Source of the DNA: Saccoglossus kowalevskii
Lineage: Eukaryota; Hemichordata; Enteropneusta; Harrimaniidae
DNA length: 30,611 nucleotides
NCBI RefSeq assembly: GCF_000003605.2
Contig: NW_003125999.1
Coordinates: forward strand, 1-30,611
Direction: 5' to 3'
This document shows positions 1 to 30,611 of this stretch, one piece after another. The notes beneath the pieces are model-generated. The model searched no databases and had not been told where the DNA came from. It worked only from the letters and a program-made list of their open reading frames with translations. A program made the position numbers and the translations under genes. How positions within the stretch are numbered: the first letter of the stretch is position 1; the number at the start of each line of letters is the position of its first letter.

Positions 1-25
1 ATTCTGCATTGGTTTTGCAGTAGGC
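1..25 (-). rRNA. 5S-like copy, cut by the window edge
   Basis: Only 5S nt 1-25 (the 5' end) lie in the window. Confidence 0.7.
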
Positions 26-123
26 TGAATATTCGTCGGAATTGGATCGTCATTTAATGCTACGGCTAGGCAAAAAATCATAGGAAAAAGTTAGTATGTA
101 ATGTGGAATAAAGATGTTGATGA

Positions 124-242
124 GCCTACTGCACGTGGTATTCTCAGCCGGTCTCCCATGCTAATACTAACCACGCCCGATGCAGCTTAGCTTCAGTGAT
201 CCGACGAGAACTGGTGTATTCTGCAACGGTTTTGCAGAAGGC
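124..242 (-). rRNA. 5S-like copy
   Basis: Full length. Box C is altered (GCTAATAC on the plus strand) and helix I has one mismatch (AAGGC end). Twin of 24360-24478. Confidence 0.65.
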
Positions 243-339
243 TGAATATTCGTCGGAATTGCATGACGTTTAACGCTTCGGTAAGGCAAAAAATCCCGGG
301 AAAAAGTTGGTATGTACGGTGGAATAAAAATGTTGAGAA

Positions 340-458
340 GCCTACTTCACATGGTATTCCCAGCCGGTCTCCGATTCAAGTACTAACCACTCCCGATGCA
401 GCTTAACTTCAGTGATCAGACGAGAACTGGTGTATTCTGCACTGGTTTGGCAGAAGGC
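340..458 (-). rRNA. 5S-like copy
   Basis: Full length. CTTCACATGG, CCGATTCAAG and AGAAGGC changes weaken helix I. Twin of 24576-24694. Confidence 0.62.
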
Positions 459-555
459 AGGATATTCGTCAGAATTGCATGTCGTTTAACGCTTCGGTAA
501 GGCAAACAATCCAGGGAAAAAGTTGGTATGTACGGTGGAATAAAAATGTTGATAA

Positions 556-674
556 GCCTACTGCACATGGTATTCCCAGCCGGTCTCCCATGCAAGTACT
601 TACCACGTCCGATGCAGCTTAACTTCAGTGATCGGACGAGAACTGGTGTATTCTGCTATGGTTTGGCAGTAGGC
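556..674 (-). rRNA. 5S-like copy, near consensus
   Basis: Full length with four changes (CACATGG, ACTTACC, CGTCCG, CTATGG); helix I intact. Twin of 1419-1537. Confidence 0.7.
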
Positions 675-771
675 AGAATATTCGTCCGAATTGCATGTCG
701 TTTAACGCTTCGGTAAATCAAAAAATCCCGGGACAAAGTTGGTATGTACGGTGGAATAAAAATGTTGAGAA

Positions 772-890
772 GCCTACTTCACATGGTATTCCCAGCCGGT
801 CTCCGATTCAAGTACTAACCACTCCCGATGCAGCTTAACTTCAGTGATCAGACGAGAACTGGTGTATTCTGCACTGGTTTGGCAGAAGGC
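772..890 (-). rRNA. 5S-like copy
   Basis: Same type as 340-458; twin of 1635-1753. Confidence 0.62.
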
Positions 891-987
891 AGGATATTCG
901 TCAGAATTGGATGTAATTTAATACTTCGGCTAGGCAAAAAATCCCGGGAAAAAGTTAGTATGTACGGTGGAATAAAAATGTTGATGA

Positions 988-1106
988 GCCTAATGCACGT
1001 GGTATTCCCAGCCGGTCTCCCGGGCAAGTACTAACCACGCCCAATGCAGCTTAACTTCAGTGATCGGACGAGAACTGGTGTATTCTGCATTGGTTTTGCA
1101 GCAGGC
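988..1106 (-). rRNA. 5S-like copy
   Basis: Full length. CCTAATGC breaks one helix I pair; CCCGGGCAAG and CCCAATG are private. Twin of 1851-1969. Confidence 0.64.
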
Positions 1107-1203
1107 TGAATATTCGTCGGAATTGGATGTCATTTAATGCTACGGCTAGGCAAAAAATCATGGGTAAAAGTTACTATGTAATGTGGAATAAAAATGTTGA
1201 TGA

Positions 1204-1321
1204 GCCTACTGCTCGTGGTATTCCCAGCCAGTCTCCCATGCAAGTACTAACCACGCCCGATGCAGCTTAACTTCAGTGATCGGACAAGAATGGTGTGTTC
1301 TGCAATGGTTTGACAATAGGC
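1204..1321 (-). pseudogene. 5S-like copy with 1-bp deletion
   Basis: 118 bp: AAGAATGG lacks one base in the loop region. Matches 2067-2170 in its first half. Confidence 0.6.
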
Positions 1322-1418
1322 TGAATATTCGTCAGAATTGCATGTCGTTTAACGCTTCGGTAAGGCAAACAATCCAGGGAAAAAGTTGGTATGTACGGTG
1401 GAATAAAAATGTTGATAA

Positions 1419-1537
1419 GCCTACTGCACATGGTATTCCCAGCCGGTCTCCCATGCAAGTACTTACCACGTCCGATGCAGCTTAACTTCAGTGATCGGAC
1501 GAGAACTGGTGTATTCTGCTATGGTTTGGCAGTAGGC
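1419..1537 (-). rRNA. 5S-like copy, near consensus
   Basis: Identical type to 556-674 (863-bp repeat). Confidence 0.7.
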
Positions 1538-1634
1538 AGAATATTCGTCCGAATTGCATGTCGTTTAACGCTTCGGTAAATCAAAAAATCCCGGGACAAA
1601 GTTGGTATGTACGGTGGAATAAAAATGTTGAGAA

Positions 1635-1753
1635 GCCTACTTCACATGGTATTCCCAGCCGGTCTCCGATTCAAGTACTAACCACTCCCGATGCAGCTTA
1701 ACTTCAGTGATCAGACGAGAACTGGTGTATTCTGCACTGGTTTGGCAGAAGGC
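1635..1753 (-). rRNA. 5S-like copy
   Basis: Second copy of 772-890. Confidence 0.62.
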
Positions 1754-1850
1754 AGGATATTCGTCAGAATTGGATGTAATTTAATACTTCGGCTAGGCAA
1801 AAAATCCCGGGAAAAAGTTAGTATGTACGGTGGAATAAAAATGTTGATGA

Positions 1851-1969
1851 GCCTAATGCACGTGGTATTCCCAGCCGGTCTCCCGGGCAAGTACTAACCA
1901 CGCCCAATGCAGCTTAACTTCAGTGATCGGACGAGAACTGGTGTATTCTGCATTGGTTTTGCAGCAGGC
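1851..1969 (-). rRNA. 5S-like copy
   Basis: Second copy of 988-1106. Confidence 0.64.
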
Positions 1970-2066
1970 TGAATATTCGTCGGAATTGGATGTCATTTAA
2001 TGCTACGGCTAGGCAAAAAATCATGGGTAAAAGTTACTATGTAATGTGGAATAAAAATGTTGATGA

Positions 2067-2170
2067 GCCTACTGCTCGTGGTATTCCCAGCCAGTCTCCC
2101 ATGCAAGTACTAACCACGCCCGATGCAGCTTAAGTTCAGTGATCGGACGAGAACTGGTGTATTCTGCAAT
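2067..2170 (-). pseudogene. Headless 5S copy (98-bp deletion type)
   Basis: Lacks 5S nt 1-15 and 83 bp of upstream spacer. Joint TGCAAT/AAAAATG, with AAT shared by both parent sites. No helix I, start site or TATA element. Confidence 0.85.
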
Positions 2171-2184
2171 AAAAATGTTCATCA

Positions 2185-2303
2185 GCCTACTACACGTGGT
2201 ATTCCCAGCCGGTCTCCCATGCAAGTACTAACCACGCCCGATGCAGCTTAACTTCAGTGATCGGACGAGAACTGGTGTATTCTGCATTGGTTTTGCAGCA
2301 GGC
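2185..2303 (-). rRNA. 5S-like copy
   Basis: Full length with four changes (CTACAC, CATTGG, GGTTTTGC, GCAGCAGGC). Confidence 0.68.
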
Positions 2304-2400
2304 TGAATATTCGTCGGAATTGGATGTCATTTAATGCTACGGCTAGGCAAAAAATCAAAGGAAAAAGTTAGTATGTAACGTGGAATAAAAAAGTGGATGA

Positions 2401-2519
2401 CCCTACTGCACGTGGTATTCCCAGCCGGTCTCCCATGCTAGTACTAACCACGCCCGATGCATCTTAACTTCAGTGATCGGACGAGAACTTCTGTATTCTG
2501 CAATGGTTTGGCAGTAGGC
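2401..2519 (-). rRNA. 5S-like copy
   Basis: Full length; 3' terminal base changed (CCCTACT). GCTAGTAC, GCATCTT and CTTCTG are also changed. Confidence 0.63.
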
Positions 2520-2616
2520 TGAATATTCGTCCGAATTTTATGTCATTTAATGCTTCGTCTAGGCAAAAAATCATGGGAAAAAGTTAGAATGTAATGTGGA
2601 ATAAAAATGTTGATGG

Positions 2617-2735
2617 GCATACTGCATGTGGTATTCCCAGCCGGTCTCACGTGCAAGTCCTAACCATGCCCGATGCGGCTTAACTTCAGTGATCGAACGA
2701 GAACTGGAGTATTCTGCATTGGTTTGGCAGTAGGC
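2617..2735 (-). rRNA. 5S-like copy
   Basis: Full length, many changes (GCATACTGCATG, CACGTGCAAGTCC, CATGCCC). Twin of 9686-9804. Confidence 0.58.
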
Positions 2736-2832
2736 TGAATATTCGTCGGAATTGGATTTCAATTAATGTTTCGGTTAGGCAAATAATAAAGGGAAAAAGA
2801 TAGTATGTACGGTGGAATAAAAATGTTGATAA

Positions 2833-2950
2833 GCCTACTGCACGTGGTATTCCCAGCCGGTCTCCCATGCAAGTACTAACCACGCCCGATGCAGGTTAAC
2901 TTCAGTGATCGGACAAGAACTGGTGTATTCTGCTATGGTTTGGCAGTAGC
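2833..2950 (-). pseudogene. 5S-like copy, 1 bp short at its 5' end
   Basis: Near consensus except CAGGTT, ACAAG, CTATGG and a lost G (AGTAGCC) that shortens helix I. Twins 9902 and 28615. Confidence 0.55.
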
Positions 2951-3047
2951 CGAATATTCGTCCGAATTGTATGTCTTTTAATGCTTCGTCTGGGCAAAAA
3001 ATCATGGGAAAAAGTTAGAATGTAATGTGGAATAAAAATGTTGATGG

Positions 3048-3166
3048 GCCTACTGCACGTGGTATTCCCAGCCGGTCTCCCGTGCAAGTCCTAACCATGC
3101 CCGATGCAGCTTAACTTCAGTGATCGGACGAGAACTGCTGTATTCTGCAATGGTTTGGCAGTAGGC
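3048..3166 (-). rRNA. 5S-like copy, near consensus
   Basis: Four changes: CCGTGC, AGTCCT, CATGCC, CTGCTG. Helix I intact. Twins 10117 and 28830. Confidence 0.68.
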
Positions 3167-3263
3167 TGAATATTCGTCCGAACTGTATGTCATTTAATGC
3201 TTCGCCTAGGCAAAAAATCATGGGAAAAAGTTAGAATGTAATGTGGAATAAAAATGTTGATGG

Positions 3264-3382
3264 GCCTACTACACGTGGTATTCCCAGCCGGTCTCCCGTG
3301 CAAGTCCTAACCATGCCCGATGCAGCTTAACTTCAGTGGTCGGACGAGAACTCGAGTATTCTGCAATGGTTTGGCAATAGGC
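3264..3382 (-). rRNA. 5S-like copy
   Basis: CTACAC, CCGTGC, AGTCCT, GTGGTCGG, CTCGAG (an XhoI-like site) and CAATAGGC. Twins 6056, 10333 and 29046. Confidence 0.62.
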
Positions 3383-3479
3383 TGAATATTCGTCGGAATT
3401 GGATGTAATTTAATACTTCGGCTAGGCAAAAAATCCCGGGAAAAAGTTAATATGTATGGTGGAATAAAAATGTTGATGA

Positions 3480-3591
3480 GCCTAATGCACATGGTATTCC
3501 AGGCCGGTCACCTATGCAACCACGCCCGATGCAGCTTAACTTCAGTGATCGGACGAGAACTGGTGTATTCTGCAATGGTTTGGCAGTAGGC
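3480..3591 (-). pseudogene. 5S copy with 7-bp box C deletion
   Basis: ATGCAACCACG replaces ATGCAAGTACTAACCACG, removing 5S nt about 74-80 and the heart of box C. Private CACCTATG. Confidence 0.85.
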
Positions 3592-3688
3592 TGAATATTT
3601 GTCGGAATTGGATTTCAATTAATGCTTCGGCTAGGCAGAAAATCACGGGAAAAAGATAGTATGTATGGTGGAATAAAAATGTTGATAA

Positions 3689-3807
3689 GCCTACTGCACG
3701 TTGTATTCCCAGCAGGTCTCCTATGCAAGTACTAACCACGCCCGATGCAGCTTAACTTCAGTGATCGGACGAGAACTGCTGTATTCTGCAATGGTTTGGC
3801 AGTAGGC
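3689..3807 (-). rRNA. 5S-like copy, near consensus
   Basis: Four changes (CGTTGT, GCAGG, CCTATG, CTGCTG); helix I intact. Confidence 0.67.
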
Positions 3808-3901
3808 TGAATTTTCGTCCGAATTTTATGTAATTTAATACTTCGGCTAGGCAAAAAATCCCGGGAAAAAGTTAGTATGTATGGTAGAAAAATGATGATG
3901 A

Positions 3902-4020
3902 GCCTAATGCACATGGTATTCCAGGCCGGTCTCCCATGCAAGTACTATCCACGCCCGATGCAGCTTAACTTCAGTGATCGGACGAGAACTGGTGTATTCT
4001 GCAATGATTTGGCAGTAGGC
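3902..4020 (-). rRNA. 5S-like copy
   Basis: CCTAATGCACATGG, CCAGG, CTATCC, AATGAT. The 3' spacer is 3 bp short but keeps T5. Confidence 0.63.
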
Positions 4021-4117
4021 TGAATATTCTTCGGAATTGGATGTCATTTAATGCTACGGCTAGGCAAAAAATCAAGGGTAAAAGTTAGTATGTAACGTGG
4101 AATAAAAATGTTGATGA

Positions 4118-6592: not shown

Positions 6593-6689
6593 TGAATATT
6601 CGTCGGAATCGGATGTAATTTAATACTTCGGCTAGGCAAAAAATCCCGGGAAAAAGTTAATATGTATGGTGGAATAAAAATGTTGATGA

Positions 6690-6801
6690 GCCTAATGCAC
6701 ATGGTATTCCAGGCCGGTCTCCCATGCAACCACGCCCGATGCAGCTTAACTTCAGTGATCGGACGAGAACTGGTGTATTCTGCAATGGTTTGGCAGTAGG
6801 C
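6690..6801 (-). pseudogene. 5S copy with 7-bp box C deletion
   Basis: Third of the 209-bp run. Confidence 0.86.
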
Positions 6802-6898
6802 TGAATATTCGTCGGAATTGGATGTAATTTAATACTTCGGCTAGGCAAAAAATCCCGGGAAAAATTTATTATGTACGGTGGAATAAAAATGTTGATGA

Positions 6899-7017
6899 TC
6901 CTACTGCACGTGGTATTCCCAACCAGTCTCCCATGCAAGTACTATCCACGCCCGATGCAGCTTAACTTCAGTGATCAAACAAGAACTGGTGTATTCTGCA
7001 GTGATTTGGCAGTAGGC
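6899..7017 (-). rRNA. 5S-like copy
   Basis: 3' terminal base changed (TCCTACT); CCCAACCAG, CTATCC, GATCAAACAAG, CAGTGAT. Twins 7965 and 29680. Confidence 0.58.
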
Positions 7018-7114
7018 TGAATATTTGTCGGAATTGGATGTCATTTAATGCAACAGCTAGGCAAAAAATCATGGGTAAAAGTTAGTATGTAACGTGGAAT
7101 AAACATGTTGATGA

Positions 7115-7233
7115 GCCTACTGCACGTGGTATTCCCAGCCGGTCTCCCATGCAAGTACTAACCGCGCCCGATTCAGCTTAACTTCAGTGATCGGACGCGA
7201 ACTGGTGTATTCTGCAATGGTGTGGCAGTAGGC
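7115..7233 (-). rRNA. 5S-like copy, near consensus
   Basis: ACCGCG, GATTCAG, ACGCG, GGTGTGG; helix I intact. First T-run reduced (TAAACATG). Confidence 0.66.
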
Positions 7234-7330
7234 TGAATATTCGTCAGAATTGGATGTAATTTAATACTTCGGCTAGGCAAAAAATCCCGGGAAAAAGTTA
7301 GTATGTATGGTGGAATAACAATGTTGATGA

Positions 7331-7442
7331 GCCTAATGCACATGGTATTGCAGGCCAGTCTCCCATTCAACCACGCCCGATGCAGCTTAACTTCAGTGAT
7401 CGGACGAGAACTGGTGTATTCTGCAATGGTTTGGCAGTAGGC
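7331..7442 (-). pseudogene. 5S copy with 7-bp box C deletion
   Basis: TATTGCAGGCCAG and CCCATTCAACC; twin of 8397 in the 1,066-bp repeat. Confidence 0.85.
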
Positions 7443-7539
7443 TGAATATTCGTCCGAATTGTATGTCATTTAATGCTTCGTCTAGGCAAAAAATCATGGG
7501 AAAAAGTTAGAATGTACGGTGGAATAAAAATGTTCATCA

Positions 7540-7658
7540 GCCTACTGCACGTGGTATTCCCAGCCGGTCTCCCATGCAAATATTAACCACGCCCGATTCA
7601 GCTTAACTTCAGTGATCGGACGCGAACTGGTGTATTCTGCAATGGTTTGGCAATAGGC
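7540..7658 (-). rRNA. 5S-like copy
   Basis: CATCAG-type flank; box C altered (CAAATATTAAC). CAATAGGC gives a G-U pair in helix I. Twin of 8606. Confidence 0.62.
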
Positions 7659-7755
7659 TGAATATTCGTCGGAATTGGATGTAATTTAATACTTCGGCTA
7701 GGCAAAAAATCCCGGGAAAATGTTAACATGTATGGTGGAATAAAAATGTTGATGA

Positions 7756-7867
7756 GCCTAATGCACATGGTATTCCAGGCCGGTCTCCCATGCAACCACG
7801 CCCGATGCAGCTTAACTTCAGTGATCGGACGAGAACTGGTGTATTCTGCAATGGTTTGGCAGTAGGC
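7756..7867 (-). pseudogene. 5S copy with 7-bp box C deletion
   Basis: Spacer TTAACATG; twin of 29471. Its counterpart was lost from the second 1,066-bp unit by recombination. Confidence 0.85.
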
Positions 7868-7964
7868 TGAATATTCGTCGGAATTGGATGTAATTTAATA
7901 CTTCGGCTAGGCAAAAAATCCCGGGAAAAATTTATTATGTACGGTGGAATAAAAATGTTGATGA

Positions 7965-8083
7965 TCCTACTGCACGTGGTATTCCCAACCAGTCTCCCAT
8001 GCAAGTACTATCCACGCCCGATGCAGCTTAACTTCAGTGATCGGACGAGAACTGGTGTATTCTGCAATGATTTGGCAGTAGGC
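7965..8083 (-). rRNA. 5S-like copy
   Basis: TCCTACT 3' end, CCCAACCAG, CTATCC, AATGAT. Twin of 29680. Confidence 0.6.
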
Positions 8084-8180
8084 TGAATATTTGTCGGAAT
8101 TGGATGTCATTTAATGCAACAGCTAGGCAAAAAATCATGGGTAAAAGTTAGTATGTAACGTGGAATAAACATGTTGATGA

Positions 8181-8299
8181 GCCTACTGCACGTGGTATTC
8201 CCAGCCGGTCTCCCATGCAAGTACTAACCACGCCCAATTCAGCTTAACTTCAGTGATCGGACGCGAACTGGTGTATTCTGCAATGGTGTGGCAGTAGGC
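8181..8299 (-). rRNA. 5S-like copy
   Basis: As 7115 but CCCAATTCAG. Starts the second 1,066-bp unit. Confidence 0.63.
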
Positions 8300-8396
8300 T
8301 GAATATTCGTCAGAATTGGATGTAATTTAATACTTCGGCTAGGCAAAAAATCCCGGGAAAAAGTTAGTATGTATGGTGGAATAACAATGTTGATGA

Positions 8397-8508
8397 GCCT
8401 AATGCACATGGTATTGCAGGCCAGTCTCCCATTCAACCACGCCCGATGCAGCTTAACTTCAGTGATCGGACGAGAACTGGTGTATTCTGCAATGGTTTGG
8501 CAGTAGGC
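8397..8508 (-). pseudogene. 5S copy with 7-bp box C deletion
   Basis: Second copy of 7331-7442. Confidence 0.85.
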
Positions 8509-8605
8509 TGAATATTCGTCCGAATTGTATGTCATTTAATGCTTCGTCTAGGCAAAAAATCATGGGAAAAAGTTAGAATGTACGGTGGAATAAAAATGTT
8601 CATCA

Positions 8606-8724
8606 GCCTACTGCACGTGGTATTCCCAGCCGGTCTCCCATGCAAATATTAACCACGCCCGATTCAGCTTAACTTCAGTGATCAGACGCGAACTGGTGTA
8701 TTCTGCAATGGTTTGGCAATAGGC
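8606..8724 (-). rRNA. 5S-like copy
   Basis: Second copy of 7540-7658, with GATCAGACG. Confidence 0.6.
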
Positions 8725-8821
8725 TGAATATTCGTCGGAATTGGATGTAATTTAATACTTCGGCTAGGCAAAAAATCCCGGGAAAAAGTTAACATGTATG
8801 GTGGAATAAAAATGTTGATGA

Positions 8822-9588: not shown

Positions 9589-9685
9589 TGAATATTCGTC
9601 CGAATTTTATGTCATTTAATGCTTCGTCTAGGCAAAAAATCATGGGAAAAAGTTAGAATGTAATGTGGAATAAAAATGTTGATGG

Positions 9686-9804
9686 GCATACTGCATGTGG
9701 TATTCCCAGCCGGTCTCACGTGCAAGTCCTAACCATGCCCGATGCGGCTTAACTTCAGTGATCGAACGAGAACTGGAGTATTCTGCATTGGTTTGGCAGT
9801 AGGC
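9686..9804 (-). rRNA. 5S-like copy
   Basis: Twin of 2617-2735. Confidence 0.58.
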
Positions 9805-9901
9805 TGAATATTCGTCGGAATTGGATTTCAATTAATGTTTCGGTTAGGCAAATAATAAAGGGAAAAAGATAGTATGTACGGTGGAATAAAAATGTTGATA
9901 A

Positions 9902-10019
9902 GCCTACTGCACGTGGTATTCCCAGCCGGTCTCCCATGCAAGTACTAACCACGCCCGATGCAGGTTAACTTCAGTGATCGGACAAGAACTGGTGTATTCT
10001 GCTATGGTTTGGCAGTAGC
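9902..10019 (-). pseudogene. 5S-like copy, 1 bp short at its 5' end
   Basis: Twin of 2833-2950. Confidence 0.55.
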
Positions 10020-10116
10020 CGAATATTCGTCCGAATTGTATGTCTTTTAATGCTTCGTCTGGGCAAAAAATCATGGGAAAAAGTTAGAATGTAATGTGGA
10101 ATAAAAATGTTGATGG

Positions 10117-10235
10117 GCCTACTGCACGTGGTATTCCCAGCCGGTCTCCCGTGCAAGTCCTAACCATGCCCGATGCAGGTTAACTTCAGTGATCGGACGA
10201 GAACTGCTGTATTCTGCAATGGTTTGGCAGTAGGC
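10117..10235 (-). rRNA. 5S-like copy
   Basis: Twin of 3048-3166 but with GCAGGTT in box A. Confidence 0.64.
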
Positions 10236-10332
10236 TGAATATTCGTCCGAACTGTATGTCATTTAATGCTTCGCCTAGGCAAAAAATCATGGGAAAAAGT
10301 TAGAATGTAATGTGGAATAAAAATGTTGATGG

Positions 10333-10451
10333 GCCTACTACACGTGGTATTCCCAGCCGGTCTCCCGTGCAAGTCCTAACCATGCCCGATGCAGCTTAAC
10401 TTCAGTGGTCGGACGAGAACTCGAGTATTCTGCAATGGTTTGGCAATAGGC
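10333..10451 (-). rRNA. 5S-like copy
   Basis: CTCGAG variant; twin of 3264-3382. Confidence 0.62.
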
Positions 10452-10548
10452 TGAATATTCGTCGGAATTGGATGTAATTTAATACTTCGGCTAGGCAAAA
10501 AATCCCGGGAAAAAGTTAATATGTATGGTGGAATAAAAATGTTGATGA

Positions 10549-10660
10549 GCCTAATGCACATGGTATTCCGGGCCGGTCTCCCATGCAACCACGCCCGATG
10601 CAGCTTAACTTCAGTGATCGGACGAGAACTGGTGTATTCTGCAATGGTTTGGCAGTAGGC
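10549..10660 (-). pseudogene. 5S copy with 7-bp box C deletion
   Basis: TATTCCGGGCC; positional twin of 3480. Confidence 0.85.
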
Positions 10661-10757
10661 TGAATAATCGTCGGAATTGGATGTAATTTAATACTTCGGC
10701 TAGGCAAAAAATCCCGGGAAAAATTTATTATGTACGGTGGACTAAAAATGTTGATGA

Positions 10758-12959: not shown

Positions 12960-13056
12960 TGAATATTCGTCGGAATTGGATGTCATTTAATGCTATGGCT
13001 AGGCAAAAAATCATAGGAAAAAGTTAGTATGTAATTTGGAATAAAAATTTTGATGA

Positions 13057-13175
13057 CCCTACTGCACGTGGTATTCCCAGCCGGTCTCCCATGCAAGTAC
13101 TAACCACGCCCGATGCAGCTTAACTTCAGTGATCGGACAAGAACTGGTGTGTTCTGCAATGGTTTGACAGTAGGC
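13057..13175 (-). rRNA. 5S-like copy, near consensus
   Basis: CCCTACT end, ACAAG, GTGTTC, TTGACAG. Counterparts 14257, 15455 and 16653. Confidence 0.65.
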
Positions 13176-13272
13176 TGAATATTCGTCAGAATTGCATGTC
13201 GTTTAACGCTTCGGTATATCATAAAATCCCGTGAAAATGTTGGTATGTACGGTGGAATAAAGATGTTGATAA

Positions 13273-13391
13273 GCCTACTGCAAGTGGTATTCCCAACCGG
13301 TCTCCCATGCAAGTATTAACCACGCCAGAGGCAGCTTAACTTCAGAGATCGAACAAGAACTGGTGTATTCTGCTATGGTTTGGGAGTAGGC
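13273..13391 (-). rRNA. 5S-like copy
   Basis: CAAGTGG, CAACCGG, GTATTAAC, GCCAGAGGC, CAGAGATCGAACAAG, GGGAGTAGG. Counterparts 14473, 15671 and 16869. Confidence 0.55.
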
Positions 13392-13488
13392 AGAATATTC
13401 GTCCGAATTGTATGTCATTTAATGATTCGTCTAGGCAAAAAATCATGGGAAAAAGTTAGTATGTAATGTGGAATAAAAATTTTGATGA

Positions 13489-13607
13489 CCCTACTGCACG
13501 TGGTATTCCCAGCAGGTCTCCCATGCAAGTACTAACCACGCGCGATGCAGCTTAACTTCAGTGATCGGACGAGAACTGGTGTATTCTGCACTGGTTTGGC
13601 AGTAGGC
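13489..13607 (-). rRNA. 5S-like copy
   Basis: CCCTACT end, GCAGG, CGCGCG, CACTGG. Counterpart 14689. Confidence 0.64.
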
Positions 13608-13704
13608 TGGATATTCGTCGGAATTGGATGTAATTTAATACTTCGGCTAGGCAAAAAATCCCGGGAAAAAGTTAGTATGTACGGTGGAATAAAAATGTTG
13701 ATGA

Positions 13705-13808
13705 GCCTAATGCACGTGGTATTCCCAGCCGGTCTCCCATACAAGTACTAACCACGCCCGAAGCAGCTTAAGTTCAGTGATCGGACGAGAACTGGTGTAT
13801 TCTGCAAA
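13705..13808 (-). pseudogene. Headless 5S copy
   Basis: CCTAATGC, CATACAAG, GAAGCAG; joint reads TGCAAAAAAAATTTTCATCAG. The 118-bp member of the 1,198-bp unit. Confidence 0.85.
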
Positions 13809-13822
13809 AAAAATTTTCATCA

Positions 13823-13941
13823 GCCTACTGCACGTGGTATTCCCAGCCGGTCTCCCATGCAAGTACTAACCACGCCCGATGCAGCTTAACTTCAGTGATC
13901 GGACAAGAACTGGTGTATTCTGCATTGGTTTTGCAGTAGGC
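13823..13941 (-). rRNA. 5S-like copy, near consensus
   Basis: Only three changes (ACAAG, CATTGG, GGTTTTGC); helix I intact. Repeated at 15023 and, with few changes, 16221. Confidence 0.72.
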
Positions 13942-14040
13942 TGAATATTCGTCGGAATTGGATGTCATTTAATGCTACGGCTAGGCAACAAAATCATAGG
14001 AAAAAGTTTAGTATGTAATGTGGAATAAAAATATTGATGA

Positions 14041-14159
14041 CCCTACTGCCAGTGGTATTCCCAGCCGGTCTCCCATGCTAGTACTAACCACGCCAGATGC
14101 ATCTTAACTTCAGTGATCCGACGAGAACTGGTGTATTCTGCAATGGTTTTGCAGTAGGC
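14041..14159 (-). rRNA. 5S-like copy
   Basis: CCCTACTGCCAG, GCTAGT, GCCAGATGCATC, GATCCG. Starts unit 2. Confidence 0.6.
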
Positions 14160-14256
14160 TGAATATTCGTCGGAATTGGATGTCATTTAATGCTATGGCT
14201 AGGCAAAAAATCATAGGAAAAAGTTAGTATGTAATGTGGAATAAAAATTTTGATGA

Positions 14257-14375
14257 CCCTACTGCACGTGGTATTCACAGCCGGTCTCCCATGCAAGTAC
14301 TAACCACGCCCGATGCAGCTTAACTTCAGTGATCGGACAAGAACTGGTGTGTTCTGCAATGGTTTGACAGTAGGC
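14257..14375 (-). rRNA. 5S-like copy
   Basis: As 13057 with TTCACAG. Confidence 0.63.
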
Positions 14376-14472
14376 TGAATATTCGTCAGAATTGCATGTC
14401 GTTTAACGCTTCGGTATATCACAAAATCCCGTGAAAATGTTGGTATGTACGGTGGAATAAAGATGTTGATAA

Positions 14473-14591
14473 GCCTACTGCAAGTGGTATTCCCAACCGG
14501 TCTCCCATGCAAGTATTAACCACGCCAGAGGCAGCTTAACTTCAGAGATCGAACAAGAACTGGTGTATTCTGCTATGGTTTGGCAGTAGGC
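14473..14591 (-). rRNA. 5S-like copy
   Basis: As 13273, with GGCAGTAGG restored. Confidence 0.57.
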
Positions 14592-14688
14592 AGAATATTC
14601 GTCCGAATTGTATGTCATTTAATGATTCGTCTAGGCAAAAAATCATGGGAAAAAGTTAGTATGTAATGTGGAATAAAAATTTTGATGA

Positions 14689-14807
14689 CCCTACTGCACG
14701 TGGTATTCCCAGCAGGTCTCCCATGCAAGTACTAACCACGCGCGATGCAGCTTAACTTCAGTGATCGGACGAGAACTGGTGTATTCTGCACTGGTTTGGC
14801 AGTAGGC
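14689..14807 (-). rRNA. 5S-like copy
   Basis: Counterpart of 13489. Confidence 0.64.
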
Positions 14808-14904
14808 TGGATATTCGTCGGAATTGGATGTAATTTAATACTTCGGCTAGGCAAAAAATCCCGGGAAAAAGTTAGTATGTACGGTGGAATAAAAATGTTG
14901 ATGA

Positions 14905-15008
14905 GCCTAATGCACGTGGTATTCCCAGCCGGTCTCCCATACAAGTACTAACCACGCCCGAAGCAGCTTAAGTTCAGTGATCGGACGAGAACTGGTGTAT
15001 TCTGCAAA
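14905..15008 (-). pseudogene. Headless 5S copy
   Basis: Counterpart of 13705. Confidence 0.85.
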
Positions 15009-15022
15009 AAAAATTTTCATCA

Positions 15023-15141
15023 GCCTACTGCACGTGGTATTCCCAGCCGGTCTCCCATGCAAGTACTAACCACGCCCGATGCAGCTTAACTTCAGTGATC
15101 GGACAAGAACTGGTGTATTCTGCATTGGTTTTGCAGTAGGC
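15023..15141 (-). rRNA. 5S-like copy, near consensus
   Basis: Counterpart of 13823; three changes from consensus. Confidence 0.72.
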
Positions 15142-15238
15142 TGAATATTCGTCGGAATTGGATGTCATTTAATGCTACGGCTAGGCAACAAATCATAGGA
15201 AAAAGTTAGTATGTAATGTGGAATAAAAATATTGATGA

Positions 15239-15357
15239 CCCTACTGCCAGTGGTATTCCCAGCCGGTCTCCCATGCTAGTACTAACCACGCCAGATGCAT
15301 CTTAACTTCAGTGATCCAACGAGAACTGGTGTATTCTGCAATGGTTTTGCAGTAGGC
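15239..15357 (-). rRNA. 5S-like copy
   Basis: As 14041 with GATCCAACG. Starts unit 3. Confidence 0.6.
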
Positions 15358-15454
15358 TGAATATTCGTCGGAATTGGATGTCATTTAATGCTATGGCTAG
15401 GCAAAAAATCATAGGAAAAAGTTAGTATGTAATGTGGAATAAAAATTTTGATGA

Positions 15455-15573
15455 CCCTACTGCACGTGGTATTCACAGCCGGTCTCCCATGCAAGTACTA
15501 ACCACGCCCGATGCAGCTTAACTTCAGTGATCGGACAAGAACTGGTGTGTTCTGCAATGGTTTGACAGTAGGC
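15455..15573 (-). rRNA. 5S-like copy
   Basis: As 14257. Confidence 0.63.
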
Positions 15574-15670
15574 TGAATATTCGTCAGAATTGCATGTCGT
15601 TTAACGCTTCGGTATATCACAAAATCCCGTGAAAATGTTGGTATGTACGGTGGAATAAAGATGTTGATAA

Positions 15671-15789
15671 GCCTACTGCAAGTGGTATTCCCAACCGGTC
15701 TCCCATGCAAGTATTAACCACGCCAGATGCAGCTTAACTTCAGAGATCGAACAAGAACTGGTGTATTCTGCTATGGTTTGGCAGTAGGC
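15671..15789 (-). rRNA. 5S-like copy
   Basis: As 14473 but GCCAGATGC instead of GCCAGAGGC. Confidence 0.58.
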
Positions 15790-15886
15790 AGAATATTCGT
15801 CCGAATTGTATGTCATTTAATGATTCGTCTAGGCAAAAAATCATGGGAAAAAGTTAGTATGTAATGTGGAATAAAAATGTTGATGA

Positions 15887-16005
15887 GCCTACTGCACTTG
15901 GTATTCCCAGCCGGTCTCCCATGCAAGTCCTAACCACGCCCGATGCAGCTTAACTTCAGTGATCGGACAACAACTGGTGAGTTCTGCAATGGTTTGACAG
16001 TAGGC
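15887..16005 (-). rRNA. 5S-like copy
   Basis: GCACTTGG, AGTCCT, ACAACAACTGGTGAG; resembles 17085, not its counterparts 13489 and 14689, so it marks an exchange inside unit 3. Confidence 0.6.
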
Positions 16006-16102
16006 TGAATATTCGTCGGAATTGGATGTAATTTAATACTTCGGCTAGGCAAAAAATCCCGGGAAAAAGTTAGTATGTACGGTGGAATAAAAATGTTGAT
16101 GA

Positions 16103-16206
16103 GCCTAATGCACGTGGTATTCCCAGCCGGTCTCCCATACAAGTACTAACCACGCCCGAAGCAGCTTAAGTTCAGTGATCGGACGAGAACTGGTGTATTC
16201 TGCAAA
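16103..16206 (-). pseudogene. Headless 5S copy
   Basis: Counterpart of 13705 and 14905. Confidence 0.85.
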
Positions 16207-16220
16207 AAAAATGTTCATCA

Positions 16221-16339
16221 GCCTACTGCACGTGGTATTCCCAGCCGGTCTCCCATGCAAGTACTAACCACGCCCGATGCAGCTTAACTTCAGTGATCGG
16301 ACAAGAACTGGTGTATTCTGCATTGGTTTTGCAGTAGGC
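16221..16339 (-). rRNA. 5S-like copy, near consensus
   Basis: Counterpart of 13823 and 15023; helix I intact. Confidence 0.72.
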
Positions 16340-16436
16340 TGAATATTCGTCGGAATTGGATGTCATTTAATGCTATGGCTAGGCAACAAATCATAGGAAA
16401 AAGTTAGTATGTAATGTGGAATAAAAATATTGATGA

Positions 16437-16555
16437 CCCTACTGCCAGTGGTATTCCCAGCCGGTCTCCCATGCTAGTACTAACCACGCCAGATGCATCT
16501 TAACTTCAGTGATCCGACGAGAACTGGTGTATTCTGCAATGGTTTTGCAGTAGGC
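16437..16555 (-). rRNA. 5S-like copy
   Basis: As 14041. Starts unit 4. Confidence 0.6.
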
Positions 16556-16652
16556 TGAATATTCGTCGGAATTGGATGTCATTTAATGCTATGGCTAGGC
16601 AAAAAATCATAGGAAAAAGTTAGTATGTAATGTGGAATAAAAATTTTGATGA

Positions 16653-16771
16653 CCCTACTGCACGTGGTATTCCCAGCCGGTCTCCCATGCAAGTACTAAC
16701 CACGCCCGATGCAGCTTAACTTCAGTGATCGGACAAGAACTGGTGTGTTCTGCAATGGTTTGACAGTAGGC
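16653..16771 (-). rRNA. 5S-like copy
   Basis: As 13057. Confidence 0.65.
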
Positions 16772-16868
16772 TGAATATTCGTCAGAATTGCATGTCGTTT
16801 AACGCTTCGGTATATCATAAAATCCCGTGAAAATGTTGGTATGTACGGTGGAATAAAGATGTTGATAA

Positions 16869-16987
16869 GCCTACTGCAAGTGGTATTCCCAACCGGTCTC
16901 CCATGCAAGTATTAACCACGCCAGAGGCAGCTTAACTTCAGAGATCGAACAAGAACTGTTGTATTCTGCTATGGTTTGGCAGTAGGC
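16869..16987 (-). rRNA. 5S-like copy
   Basis: As 13273 with CTGTTGTATT. Confidence 0.56.
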
Positions 16988-17084
16988 AGAATATTCGTCC
17001 GAATTGTATGTCATTTAATGATTCGTCTAGGCAAAAAATCATGGGAAAAAGTTAGTATGTAATGTGGAATAAAAATGTTGATGA

Positions 17085-17203
17085 GCCTACTGCACGTGGT
17101 ATTCCCAGCCGGTCTCCCATGCAAGTGCTAACCACGCCCGATGCAGCTTAACTTCAGTGATCGGACAACAACTGGTGAGTTCTGCAATGGTTTGACAGTA
17201 GGC
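17085..17203 (-). rRNA. 5S-like copy
   Basis: AGTGCTAAC in box C, ACAACAACTGGTGAG, TTGACAG. Confidence 0.6.
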
Positions 17204-17300
17204 TGAATATTCGTCAGAATTGCATGTCGTTTAACGCTTCGGTAAATAAAAAAATCCCGGGACAAAGTTGGTATGTACGGTGGAATAAAAATGTTGAGAA

Positions 17301-17419
17301 GGCTACTGCAGATGGTATTCCCAGCCGGTCTCCCATGCAAGTACTAACCACGCCCGATGCAGCTTAACTTCAGTGATCGGACGAGAACTGGTGTATTCTG
17401 CATTGGTTTTGCAGTAGGC
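17301..17419 (-). rRNA. 5S-like copy
   Basis: GGCTACTGCAGATGG, CATTGG, GGTTTTGC. Same 3' type as 21413 and 19362. Confidence 0.62.
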
Positions 17420-17516
17420 TGAAGATTCGTCGGAATTGGATGTCATTTAATGCTACGGCTAGGCAAAAAATCATGGGTAAAAGTTACTATGTAATGTGGA
17501 ATAAAAATGTTGATGA

Positions 17517-20338: not shown

Positions 20339-20435
20339 TGAATATTCGTCGGAATTGGATGTAATTTAATACTTTGGCTAGGCAAAAAATCCCGGGAAAA
20401 AGTTAGTATGTATGGTGGAATAAAAATGTTGATGA

Positions 20436-20548
20436 GCCTAATGCACATGGTATTCCAGGCCGGTCTCCTCATGCAACCACGCTCGATGCAGCTTAACTTC
20501 AGTGATCAGACGATAACTGGTGTATTCTGCAATGAGTTGGCAGTAGGC
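20436..20548 (-). pseudogene. 5S copy with 7-bp box C deletion
   Basis: Also a 1-bp insertion (CTCCTCATGCAACC), CGATAACTGG and AATGAGTTGG. Confidence 0.85.
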
Positions 20549-26447: not shown

Positions 26448-26461
26448 AAAAATGTTCATCA

Positions 26462-26580: not shown

Positions 26581-26677
26581 TGAGTATTCGTCAGAATTGG
26601 ATGTCACTTAACGCTTCGGCTAGGCAAAAAATCCCGTGAAAAGTTTGGTATGTACGGTGGAATAAAGATGTTGATAA

Positions 26678-26796
26678 GCCTACTGCAAGTGGTATTCCCA
26701 GCCAGTCTCCCATGCAAGTACTAACCACGCCAGATGCAGCTTAACTTCAGTGATCGAACGAGAACTGGTGTATTCTGCAATGGTTTGGCAGTAGGC
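26678..26796 (-). rRNA. 5S-like copy, near consensus
   Basis: CAAGTGG, CCAGTC, GCCAGATG, GATCGAACG; helix I intact. Confidence 0.67.
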
Positions 26797-26893
26797 TGAA
26801 TATTCGTCGGAATTGGATGTAATTTAATACTTCGGCTAGGCAAAAAATCCCGGGAAAAGGTTAGTATGTACGGAGGAATAAAAATGTTGATGA

Positions 26894-27012
26894 GCGTACT
26901 GCACGTGGTATTCCCAACCAGTCTCACATGCAAGTACTAACCACGCCCGATGCAGCTTAACTTCAGTGATCGGACGAGAACTGGTGTATTCTGCAATGAT
27001 TTGGCAGTAGGC
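26894..27012 (-). rRNA. 5S-like copy
   Basis: Twin of 4334 with GCGTACTGC. Confidence 0.63.
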
Positions 27013-27109
27013 TGAATATTCGTCGGAATTGGATGTCATTTAATGCTACGGCTAGGCAAAAAATCATGGGTAAAAGTTAGTATGTAATGTGGAATAAAAA
27101 TGTTGATGA

Positions 27110-27228
27110 GCCTACTGCTCGTGGTATTCCCAGCCGGTCTCCCATGCAAGTACTAACCACGCCCGATGCAGCTGAAATTCAGTGATCGGACGAGAACTGG
27201 TGTGTTCTGCAATGGTTTGACAGTAGGC
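27110..27228 (-). rRNA. 5S-like copy
   Basis: Twin of 4550 with GCTCG and consensus CCAGCC. Confidence 0.65.
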
Positions 27229-27325
27229 TGAATATTCGTCAGAATTGCCTGTGGTTTAACGCTTTGGCTAGGCAAAAAATCCCGGGAAAAATTTGGTATG
27301 TTCGGTGGAATAAAAATGTTGATAA

Positions 27326-27444
27326 GCCTACTGCACGTGGTATTCACAGCCGGTCTCCCATGCAAGTACTAACCAAGCCCGATGCAGCTTAAGTTCAGTG
27401 ATTGGACGAGAACTGGTGTATTCTGCAATGGTTTGGCAGTAGGC
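27326..27444 (-). rRNA. 5S-like copy
   Basis: Twin of 4766 with CTTAAGTTC and GTGATTGG. Confidence 0.65.
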
Positions 27445-27541
27445 TGAATATTCGTCGGAATTGGATGTCATTTACTGCTACGGATAGGCAAAAAATCATG
27501 GGTAAAATTTAGTATGTAATGTGGAATAAAAATGTTGATGA

Positions 27542-27660
27542 GCCTACTGCACGTGGTATTCTCAGCCGTTCTCCCATGCAAGTACTAACCACCCCCGATG
27601 CGGCTTAACTTCAGAGATCGGAGGAGAACTCGTGTATTCTGCAATGGTTTGGCAGTAGGC
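27542..27660 (-). rRNA. 5S-like copy
   Basis: Twin of 4982; CCACCCCCG, GCGGCTT, GGAGGAGAACTCG; helix I intact here. Confidence 0.6.
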
Positions 27661-27757
27661 TGAATGTTCGTCGGAATTGGATGTAATTTAATACTTCGGC
27701 TAGGCAAAAAATCCAGGAAAAACATTACTATGTACAGTGGAATAAAATTTTTGATGA

Positions 27758-27876
27758 GCCTACTGCACGTGGTATTCCCAGCCGATCTCCCATGCAAGTA
27801 CTAACCATGCCCGATGCAGATTAACTTCAGTGATCGGACGAGAACTGGTTTATTCTGCATTGGTTTGGCAGTAGGC
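27758..27876 (-). rRNA. 5S-like copy
   Basis: Twin of 5198 with CTGGTTTATT. Confidence 0.61.
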
Positions 27877-27973
27877 TGAATATTCGTCGCAATTGGATGT
27901 CATTTAATGCTTCGGCTAGGCAAAAAATCACGGGAAAAAGTTAGTATGTACGGTGGAATAAAAATGTTCATCA

Positions 27974-28092
27974 GCCTACTGCACGTGGTATTCCCAGCCG
28001 GTCTCTCATGCTAGTACTAACCGCGCCCGATTCAGCTTAACTTCAGTGATCGGACGCGAACTGGTGTATTCTGCAATGGTGTGGCAGTAGGC
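27974..28092 (-). rRNA. 5S-like copy
   Basis: Twin of 5631 with CTCTCATG; CATCAG-type flank. Confidence 0.62.
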
Positions 28093-28189
28093 TGAATATT
28101 CGTCAGAATTGGATGTAATTTAATACTTCGGCTAGGCAAAAAATCCCGGGAAAAAGTTAGTATGTATGGTGGAATAACAATGTTGATGA

Positions 28190-28301
28190 GCCTAATGCAC
28201 ATGGTATTGCAGGCCAGTCTCCCATTCAACCACGCCCGATGCAGCTTAACTTCAGTGATCGGACGAGAACTGGTGTATTCTGCAATGGTTTGGCAGTAGG
28301 C
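28190..28301 (-). pseudogene. 5S copy with 7-bp box C deletion
   Basis: TATTGCAGGCCAG as 7331 and 8397; first T-run broken. Confidence 0.85.
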
Positions 28302-28398
28302 TGAATATTCGTCCGAATTGTATGTCATTTAATGCTTCGTCTAGGCAAAAAATCATGGGAAAAAGTTAGAATGTACGGTGGAATAAAAATGTTCATCA

Positions 28399-28517
28399 GC
28401 CTACTGCACGTGGTATTCCCAGCCGGTCTCACGTGCAAGTACTAACCATGCCCGATGCGGCTTAACTTCAGTGATCGAACGAGAACTGGAGTATTCTGCA
28501 TTGGTTTGGCAGTAGGC
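28399..28517 (-). rRNA. 5S-like copy
   Basis: Joins a CATCAG flank to a 2617-type body (CACGTGC, CATGCC, GCGGCTT, CGAACG, CTGGAG), marking the edge of block C copy 3. Confidence 0.6.
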
Positions 28518-28614
28518 TGAATATTCGTCGGAATTGGATTTCAATTAATGTTTCGGTTAGGCAAATAATAAAGGGAAAAAGATAGTATGTACGGTGGAAT
28601 AAAAATGTTGATAA

Positions 28615-28732
28615 GCCTACTGCACGTGGTATTCCCAGCCGGTCTCCCATGCAAGTACTAACCACGCCCGATGCAGGTTAACTTCAGTGATCGGACAAGA
28701 ACTGGTGTATTCTGCTATGGTTTGGCAGTAGC
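28615..28732 (-). pseudogene. 5S-like copy, 1 bp short at its 5' end
   Basis: Twin of 2833 and 9902. Confidence 0.55.
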
Positions 28733-28829
28733 CGAATATTCGTCCGAATTGTATGTCTTTTAATGCTTCGTCTGGGCAAAAAATCATGGGAAAAAGTTAG
28801 AATGTAATGTGGAATAAAAATGTTGATGG

Positions 28830-28948
28830 GCCTACTGCACGTGGTATTCCCAGCCGGTCTCCCGTGCAAGTCCTAACCATGCCCGATGCAGCTTAACTTC
28901 AGTGATCGGACGAGAACTGCTGTATTCTGCAATGGTTTGGCAGTAGGC
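28830..28948 (-). rRNA. 5S-like copy, near consensus
   Basis: Twin of 3048; helix I intact. Confidence 0.68.
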
Positions 28949-29045
28949 TGAATATTCGTCCGAACTGTATGTCATTTAATGCTTCGCCTAGGCAAAAAAT
29001 CATGGGAAAAAGTTAGAATGTAATGTGGAATAAAAATGTTGATGG

Positions 29046-29164
29046 GCCTACTACACGTGGTATTCCCAGCCGGTCTCCCGTGCAAGTCCTAACCATGCCC
29101 GATGCAGCTTAACTTCAGTGGTCGGACGAGAACTCGAGTATTCTGCAATGGTTTGGCAATAGGC
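29046..29164 (-). rRNA. 5S-like copy
   Basis: CTCGAG variant, as 3264. Confidence 0.62.
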
Positions 29165-29261
29165 TGAATATTCGTCAGAATTGGATGTAATTTAATACTT
29201 CGGCTAGGCAAAAAATCCCGGGAAAAAGTTAGTATGTATGGTGGAATAACAATGTTGATGA

Positions 29262-29373
29262 GCCTAATGCACATGGTATTCCAGGCCAGTCTCCCATTCA
29301 ACCACGCCCGATTCAGCTTAACTTCAGTGATCGGACGCGAACTGGTGTATTCTGCAATGGTTTGGCAATAGGC
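29262..29373 (-). pseudogene. 5S copy with 7-bp box C deletion
   Basis: 5847-type 3' part (TAACAATG, CCCATTCAACC) joined to a 7540-type 5' part (GATTCAG, ACGCG, CAATAGGC). Confidence 0.85.
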
Positions 29374-29470
29374 TGAATATTCGTCGGAATTGGATGTAAT
29401 TTAATACTTCGGCTAGGCAAAAAATCCCGGGAAAAAGTTAACATGTATGGTGGAATAAAAATGTTGATGA

Positions 29471-29582
29471 GCCTAATGCACATGGTATTCCAGGCCGGTC
29501 TCCCATGCAACCACGCCCGATGCAGCTTAACTTCAGTGATCGGACGAGAACTGGTGTATTCTGCAATGGTTTGGCAGTAGGC
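29471..29582 (-). pseudogene. 5S copy with 7-bp box C deletion
   Basis: Twin of 7756. Confidence 0.85.
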
Positions 29583-29679
29583 TGAATATTCGTCGGAATT
29601 GGATGTAATTTAATACTTCGGCTAGGCAAAAAATCCCGGGAAAAATTTATTATGTACGGTGGAATAAAAATGTTGATGA

Positions 29680-29798
29680 TCCTACTGCACGTGGTATTCC
29701 CAACCAGTCTCCCATGCAAGTACTATCCACGCCCGATGCAGCTTAACTTCAGTGATCGGACGAGAACTGGTGTATTCTGCAATGATTTGGCAGTAGGC
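29680..29798 (-). rRNA. 5S-like copy
   Basis: Twin of 7965 (TCCTACT end). Confidence 0.6.
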
Positions 29799-29895
29799 TG
29801 AATATTTGTCGGAATTGGATGTCATTTAATGCAACAGCTAGGCAAAAAATCATGGGTAAAAGTTAGTATGTAACGTGGAATAAACATGTTGATGA

Positions 29896-30014
29896 GCCTA
29901 CTGCACGTGGTATTCCCAGCCGGTCTCCCATGCAAGTACTAACCACGCCCGATGCAGCTGAAATTCAGTGATCGGACGAGAACTGGTGTGTTCTGCAATG
30001 GTTTGACAGTAGGC
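29896..30014 (-). rRNA. 5S-like copy
   Basis: GCTGAAATTC, GTGTTC, TTGACAG; first T-run reduced (TAAACATG). Confidence 0.65.
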
Positions 30015-30097
30015 TGAATATTCGTCAGAATTGCCTTTGGTTTAACGCTGCGGTAAGGCAAAAAATCCCGGGAAAAAGTTGGTATGTACGGTGGAAT

Positions 30098-30102
30098 AAA
30101 AA
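30098..30102 (-). terminator. Pol III T5 terminator of 5S copy 30112-30230
   Basis: Five Ts on the minus strand starting 10 nt past the 5S 3' end. Backup runs follow at 30073-30077 (T5) and 30060-30065 (T6). Other spacers keep or break the first run: TAAAGATG and TAAACATG types retain only T3, and TAACAATG types lose it. Confidence 0.65.
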
Positions 30103-30137
30103 TGTTGATAAGCCTACTGCAGGTGGTATTCCCAGCC

Positions 30138-30158
30138 GGTCTCCCATGCAAGTACTAA
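30138..30158 (-). promoter_or_regulatory. Box C-like part of the 5S internal promoter (example copy)
   Basis: Minus-strand TTAGTACTTGCATGGGAGACC, at 5S nt 73-93, the region bound by TFIIIA in known 5S genes. This is the segment hit by the recurrent 7-bp deletion elsewhere in the array. Confidence 0.75.
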
Positions 30159-30165
30159 CCACGCC

Positions 30166-30181
30166 CGATGCAGCTTAACTT
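30166..30181 (-). promoter_or_regulatory. Box A-like part of the 5S internal promoter (example copy)
   Basis: Minus-strand AAGTTAAGCTGCATCG at 5S nt 50-65, matching the animal box A pattern. Confidence 0.7.
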
Positions 30182-30255
30182 CAGTGATCGAACGAGAACT
30201 GGTGTATTCTGCAATGGTTTGGCAGTAGGCTGAATATTCGTTGGAATTGGATGTA

Positions 30256-30261
30256 ATTTAA
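30256..30261 (-). promoter_or_regulatory. TATA-like element, -31 to -26 of 5S copy 30112-30230
   Basis: TTAAAT on the minus strand, 25 nt upstream of the 5S start. Arthropod, nematode and plant 5S genes use AT-rich elements near -30, and the same position is TTAAAT or TTAAAC in most other copies. Shown here for one copy as the example. Confidence 0.55.
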
Positions 30262-30327
30262 TACTTCGGCTAGGCAAAAAATCCCTGGAAAAAGTTAGTA
30301 TGTACGATGAAATAAAAATGTTGATGA

Positions 30328-30431
30328 GCCTAATGCACGTGGTATTCCCAGCCGGTCTGCCATGCAAGTACTAACCACGCCCGATGCAGCTTAACTTTAG
30401 TGATCGGATGATAACTGGTGTATTCTGCAAT
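30328..30431 (-). pseudogene. Headless 5S copy
   Basis: Twin of 21079 with CTTTAGTG and GATAAC. Confidence 0.85.
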
Positions 30432-30445
30432 AAAAATGTTCATCA

Positions 30446-30563
30446 GCCTACTGCACGTGGTATTCCCAGCCGGTCTCCCATGCAAGTACTAACCTCGCCC
30501 GATGCAGCTTAACTTCAGTGATCGGACGAAACTGGTGTATTCTGCATTGGTTTGACAGTACGC
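30446..30563 (-). pseudogene. 5S-like copy with 1-bp deletion
   Basis: ACCTCG, GGACGAAACTGG lacks one base, and CAGTACGC breaks helix I. Confidence 0.57.
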
Positions 30564-30611
30564 TGAATATTCGTCGGAATTGGATGTCATTTAATGTTAC
30601 TGCTATGCAAA

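Follow-up and report, generated by a model that had tools for sequence, protein, structure and literature searches.

Architecture of the array

The window, i.e. the whole stretch of 30,611 nucleotides analysed here (NW_003125999.1), constitutes the whole of C1891, one of the 4,830 contigs of a 572-Mb assembly, and consists over its full length (1..30611, minus strand) of a head-to-tail satellite with a unit of 216 bp, a large part of which resembles 5S ribosomal RNA (rRNA). About 148–150 units are present, as seen with Rfam, blastn and a monomer profile. A cmscan search yielded 135 full-length matches to the Rfam 5S family RF00001 at or above the gathering score (52.2–97.8 bits, model positions 1–120), the top-scoring segment being located at 8180..8299 and the lowest-scoring among those listed at 20435..20548, all of them on the minus strand; neither a 5S match on the plus strand nor any further Rfam family was listed for the window. 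blastn with the genome's own 5S as query detected 148 copies, again on the minus strand throughout, and the lower count of cmscan is probably due to some truncated copies in fused pairs that it skipped. The monomer profile matched the window 150 times with 99.7% coverage, and on five other contig pieces of 10 kb its coverage was nowhere below 99.7%.

The consensus unit divides into 120 nt of 5S and 96 bp of spacer. The initial annotation had proposed that 5S accounts for more than half of the monomer, which is borne out, as is the search with RF00001 on the minus strand that it had suggested as a check. Its unit length of 216 bp was correct, but not its division into 119 and 97, the extra base of the 5S segment being an insertion in helix II. 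It had moreover considered the spacer very short for an animal 5S repeat. This is true for this genome, where the other 5S units measure about 1.1–1.6 kb, but such a length is not unprecedented, as the main 5S genes of Tribolium castaneum are described, in the excerpts available of PMC11202950, as a 121-bp gene with a 71-bp spacer. The satellite resembles this arrangement in its very short unit and differs from it in that the Tribolium repeats are the main 5S genes of the species.

The 148 blastn copies are separated by 147 spacings, most of which (112) are 215–217 bp long, with two further classes at 209–211 bp (15) and 118–123 bp (14). The former of these is mostly caused by a 7-bp deletion within the 5S part, and the 113-nt 5S segment that cmscan located at 7330..7442 (minus strand) is as expected of this 209-bp variant. 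The latter results from a 98-bp deletion that runs through most of the spacer into the following 5S segment, of which the first ~18 nt are lost; in the fused pair at 2050..2286 (minus strand, 118-bp spacing) the junction, as read from the sequence, lies at an ATT microhomology. Clustering revealed only weak heterogeneity into subfamilies (silhouette 0.11–0.15).

Could the unit be a short interspersed nuclear element (SINE) with a 5S head that turned into a tandem repeat? 5S-headed SINEs exist, SINE3 of zebrafish being one of them. However, the 96-bp spacer of the consensus contains three runs of five to six T that should stop RNA polymerase III inside the unit, and an A-rich tail is lacking. 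Furthermore, when the monomer at 17300..17515 (minus strand) was used as query of a genome search, the best copies on other contigs were 95–97% identical to it, and the 30 loci fetched (L010–L039), which are the best copies of that search only, each consisted of satellite for at least 98.7%. We consider this explanation very unlikely.

Comparison with the other 5S arrays of the genome

Separate 5S arrays are present in the same genome, in which the unit is mostly ~1,139 bp (C3485) or ~1,579 bp (C2212 and C3801) long. Their copies score 105–113 bits (47 scored out of 18,217 first-look candidates, so that further arrays may exist). From their score, an upstream element and the position of a T-run we infer that these arrays contain the working 5S genes. 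In eight copies taken from L001, L003 and L004 the element, a motif chosen by eye, is situated at −21 and reads ACTTAAA in six and ACTTACA in two, and in all eight a T-run begins directly at the end of the 5S. The satellite consensus has no ACTTAAA-type element at −21, its sole TTAAA being found ~10 nt further upstream, and its T-run begins 8 nt later. The satellite spacer showed nothing in common with the spacers of the working 5S genes beyond a 13-bp match with an E value of 2.9.

The 5S part itself has remained similar. Between the satellite consensus and the 5S of the same genome the identity is 91.7%, with a single difference within positions 50–97, and the consensus has a predicted fold energy of −47.1 as compared to −50.5 kcal/mol. 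Since separate and higher-scoring 5S arrays exist in the same genome, the array of the window is a 5S-derived satellite and something other than working 5S rRNA-encoding DNA (rDNA). What would be expected of a functional 5S was not found, namely a fold kept under selection and the upstream element with an immediate T-run (eight working copies compared to the satellite consensus), and what would be expected of a 5S-derived satellite was: a tandem unit with 5S homology, location on distinct contigs with a spacer of its own and a diverged 5S, and high copy number.

As to the working arrays, those on C3485 and on C2212/C3801 are unlike in unit length and have spacers that look different, and share a common stretch upstream of the gene.

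Founder changes in the satellite consensus

In which respects does the satellite deviate from the working 5S? Its consensus carries nine substitutions and one insertion, a U at position 17 in helix II. Eight of the nine substitutions are at paired sites, the remaining one (position 12) being unpaired. Three pairs are changed on both sides (from working to satellite 7-113 G-C to U-A, 18-62 C-G to U-A and 31-48 G-C to A-U), two wobbles are turned into Watson-Crick pairs (20-60 U-G to C-G and 26-53 G-U to A-U), and none of the tested pairs is broken. The initial annotation had listed paired changes in helices III, IV and V. Only the one in helix III (CAGT/ACTG) is specific to the satellite; the states of helices IV and V are identical in the genome's working 5S, thus represent the normal 5S of the species and are uninformative on the satellite. 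It had overlooked that helix I and helix II each contain a further paired change specific to the satellite.

Such a pattern is rarely produced by chance. Among 200,000 random sets of nine substitutions 1.2% left every pair unbroken and none contained three compensated pairs, under the presumption that mutation is even across sites and with the pairs of helix II registered by hand. An empirical null yielded a similar picture, as out of 101 distinct monomers with 7–12 substitutions a single one had no broken pair and none had three or more compensated pairs. These numbers bear on the possibility that the satellite descended from an ordinary 5S pseudogene that had never been a functional variant, the paired changes having arisen by coincidence or gene conversion. 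A plain duplicate would be the usual start, and the satellite of Hoplias malabaricus is attributed, in the part of PMC2713275 that was available, to duplicated rDNA segments. Nevertheless, nine changes with three compensated and no broken pair, a number of compensated pairs reached by 0 of the 200,000 random sets, are difficult to reconcile with drift, and the monomers that do drift behave otherwise. A pseudogene origin is therefore already disfavoured, and we consider it unlikely.

Variation among the monomers

The monomer profile gave 400 matches in total, of which those with no more than 10 gap columns, 300 in number, were kept as near-full-length, 261 of these being distinct. Before the counts were made, the pairing register of helix II, as given by the Rfam alignment, was readjusted by hand, and gaps were set aside in the covariation and empirical-null counts and scored as differences or broken pairs wherever copies were compared to the consensus. 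Among the 261 distinct monomers the mean share of standard pairs was 0.9348, as compared to 0.9353 expected under independence, and three double changes were observed versus 8.6 expected; covariation within the array was thus not detected in this set. Non-consensus bases had a mean frequency of 0.048 at those 5S sites that are paired, of 0.054 at the unpaired ones and of 0.088 in the spacer, the difference in variability between 5S part and spacer not being significant (p = 0.30). Pair-breaking transitions occur at 23 of 29 possible sites and pair-preserving ones at 27 of 34. On average, a copy has 6.8 differences from its own consensus in the 5S part, gaps counted, and 261 of the 300 near-full-length copies break one to five of the tested pairs.

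In addition, the 7-bp deletion removes all seven columns in 29 of the 300 near-full-length monomers, among them 14 of the 122 from the window, and the 98-bp fusion deletion accounts for 14 of the 147 spacings, with nine exact junctions in the window. Both lesions, the 7-bp deletion and the fusion by spacer loss, have themselves been multiplied. CpG is kept in 74% of the cells and GpC in 86%, a mild sign of CpG loss that would fit methylation.

All founder pairs were kept, no covariation is seen among the monomers and their pairs are freely broken; selection on the fold thus appears, as judged from these patterns, to have preceded the amplification and not to have acted during it. The initial annotation had proposed that evolution as a folded RNA took place "before or during amplification"; the first alternative is supported, as the founder pairs are kept, and the second is not, as there is no excess of pairing.

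Might the array nevertheless be 5S rDNA that is at work, possibly of a class restricted to one stage such as the oocyte type? Nearly every unit contains a 5S segment, the consensus folds like 5S and deviates from the working 5S at just one site between positions 50 and 97, and 22 of 300 copies are largely intact. Set against this are the mean of 6.8 differences per copy in the 5S part and the one to five broken pairs in 261 of 300, the loss of 7 nt of the 5S part in 29 of 300, the missing upstream element and the displaced T-run, and the presence of separate 5S arrays in the genome. We consider a working locus very unlikely, and the satellite presumably has no function as a 5S gene.

Origin of the satellite

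How could such an array have come about? The reading that we prefer, with a probability of roughly 0.8, is that a single unit of a once working but divergent 5S rRNA gene gave rise to the satellite. It could be imagined that initially a second class of 5S genes drifted away from the main class, still being selected as a folded RNA. The consensus found today, which would descend from it, has nine substituted sites and one insertion, and every substituted pair in it is still paired. The founding unit would have had the 96-bp spacer, no upstream element of the kind present in the working arrays and a T-run 8 nt late, and its repetition head-to-tail would have given rise to the arrays seen on many contigs. 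As their present variation shows, the copies now mutate with no clear dependence on the fold, the 7-bp deletion and the spacer-loss fusion having multiplied along with them, and the satellite spreads through duplication of blocks of several monomers, for which such blocks provide the evidence.

Several points weigh against this scenario. No class of 5S copies with gene-like surroundings was found to carry the satellite alleles, albeit no search aimed at one was completed. 21-mers with mixed alleles, half-way between the two classes, have exact matches at 12 and 4 places in the genome, and the six loci of these 16 that were read were all satellite, without a transition. Pair-breaking transitions have a mean frequency of 0.012, below the 0.021 of pair-preserving ones, the sole hint and possible trace of a residual constraint. 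Furthermore, in 22 of the 300 near-full-length copies no tested pair is broken and positions 50–97 deviate from the consensus by one base at most, so that some copies might be transcribed. The even mutation and the hand registration of helix II that enter the random null are to be counted here as well, and so is polarity, as the lineage in which the paired changes were made would be polarised only with 5S sequences of other hemichordates. Compared to vertebrate 5S, it is presumably the satellite that has the derived state at pair 7-113.

A related idea is that the satellite is a fossil or reservoir of the second 5S class whose intact copies still make this 5S in some tissue or stage, for which the largely intact copies would be the candidates; we regard it as highly improbable. 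Under the preferred origin from a once working gene, the array presents a clean case in which selection on the RNA fold came first and nearly free decay followed after amplification, the two being separable on one molecule. The point of interest is the unusually clear record of the founder, which suggests that satellites can preserve lost classes of rRNA genes.

Higher-order repeats and abundance

The mean identity of monomers is 0.89 for any two in the window, 0.888 for neighbours and 0.88–0.90 between contigs. Neighbours thus are no more alike than any pair, indicating little local homogenisation. Runs of three to eight monomers, selected at 97.5% identity or more per monomer, match other runs at 98.6–100% (background 89%), some of them 7–26 kb apart. 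A higher-order repeat at 12961..15789 (minus strand) consists of eight monomers at 12961–14591 that match the monomers six further on (14161–15789) with 99.6% identity, and a related run at 14810–16006 (minus strand) recurs at 16007–17204 with 99.2%. Five monomers at 6594–7659 are found again at 7660–8725 with 99.1% identity (6594..8725, minus strand), and a five-monomer block at 2521..3592 (minus strand) has a second copy at 9590..10661 (99.6%). An 862-bp block at 461–1322 was likewise seen again at 1323–2170 (99.5%), and the monomers at 339–458, 771–890 and 1634–1753 have the identical score of 75.6 bits.

A satellite-specific 21-mer has 1,791 exact copies in the assembly and 204 in the 80,611 bp that were sampled. 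By rough extrapolation this corresponds to ~0.7 Mb or ~3,300 units, ~0.12% of the assembly, an estimate that is affected by the choice of the sampled contigs for their similarity to one monomer of the window and by the tendency of arrays to collapse in assemblies.

Relation to known repeats derived from 5S

Satellites of this kind are known, PcP190 and 5SHindIII-DNA being examples, and what is new here are the probable taxon, the unit and the spacer. A 5S-derived satellite in hemichordates was not found described in the open-access literature, which was partly judged by title, and the working 5S sequence had no match in open-access papers. The published systems are compared here on the basis of those parts of the cited reports that were available.

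PcP190 of hyloid frogs has a tandem unit of ~190 bp with a 120-bp 5S-like segment and a spacer unlike known 5S spacers, and in both species of the study it lies on contigs apart from the 5S rDNA (PMC11675491). Our satellite shares with it the tandem 5S-like segment, the unrelated spacer and the separation from the contigs with 5S rDNA. It differs in its unit of 216 bp and in the identity of its 5S part to that of the own genome, which is 91.7% as compared to ~69–70% in PcP190 (PMC11675491). Moreover, PcP190 consists of a conserved and a hypervariable region (PMC11675491), whereas here 5S part and spacer are not significantly different in variability. The probable taxon also argues against membership in PcP190, with which our satellite was compared by description only.

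5SHindIII-DNA of Hoplias malabaricus has a 360-bp unit, of which 95 bp resemble 5S and 265 bp the genuine 5S spacer (PMC2713275). It is likewise a tandem satellite that originated from 5S rDNA, the many chromosomal sites being a feature of Hoplias (PMC2713275); in contrast to it, the 5S is full length in our case and the spacer unlike the real ones of the genome. In pikes, 5S rDNA has been massively amplified to thousands of homogeneous copies that were judged potentially functional (PMC5437419). Copies of 5S in the thousands are thus common to both, but those of the satellite are diverged and broken in their fold.

An insertion in the array and the mitochondrial contig

The decayed 3′ end of an element resembling retrotransposons without long terminal repeats was observed within the satellite at L050:1–1447 (C404), L052:1501–2935 (C1072) and from L053:403 onward (C4545). 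By eye it would be a long interspersed nuclear element, one piece being without a Pfam match. On C1072 the insertion is situated inside the array and flanked by a target duplication of ~10–12 bp (monomer columns 142–153). In their upstream flanks, C1072 and C4545 share 98.9% identity over 363 bp, indicating one insertion that was copied together with the array. Downstream of the insertion, the identity between C404 and C1072 amounts to only 92% at first and to 88–89% thereafter, and the 3′ flank on C4545 is not satellite.

On the mitochondrial contig C4830, most of the located protein genes, ND2 not being among them, are on one strand, as in vertebrates, with COX1 inverted. By eye, AAA appears to encode Lys and AGA Ser, and nad6 lies between tRNA-Pro and tRNA-Phe. 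For the mitochondrion of Saccoglossus kowalevskii, the available part of PMC3121625, which deals with hemichordates, describes the COX1 inversion, AAA as Lys and AGA as Ser. The genome is thus probably that of an acorn worm of the Saccoglossus type. A lancelet as source was considered and rejected, since the lancelet gene orders described in the available part of PMC2034537 have no COX1 inversion. Immediately ahead of atp6 on C4830 (L040:1–700), the translations suggest the presence of tandem repeats with units of roughly 130 bp.

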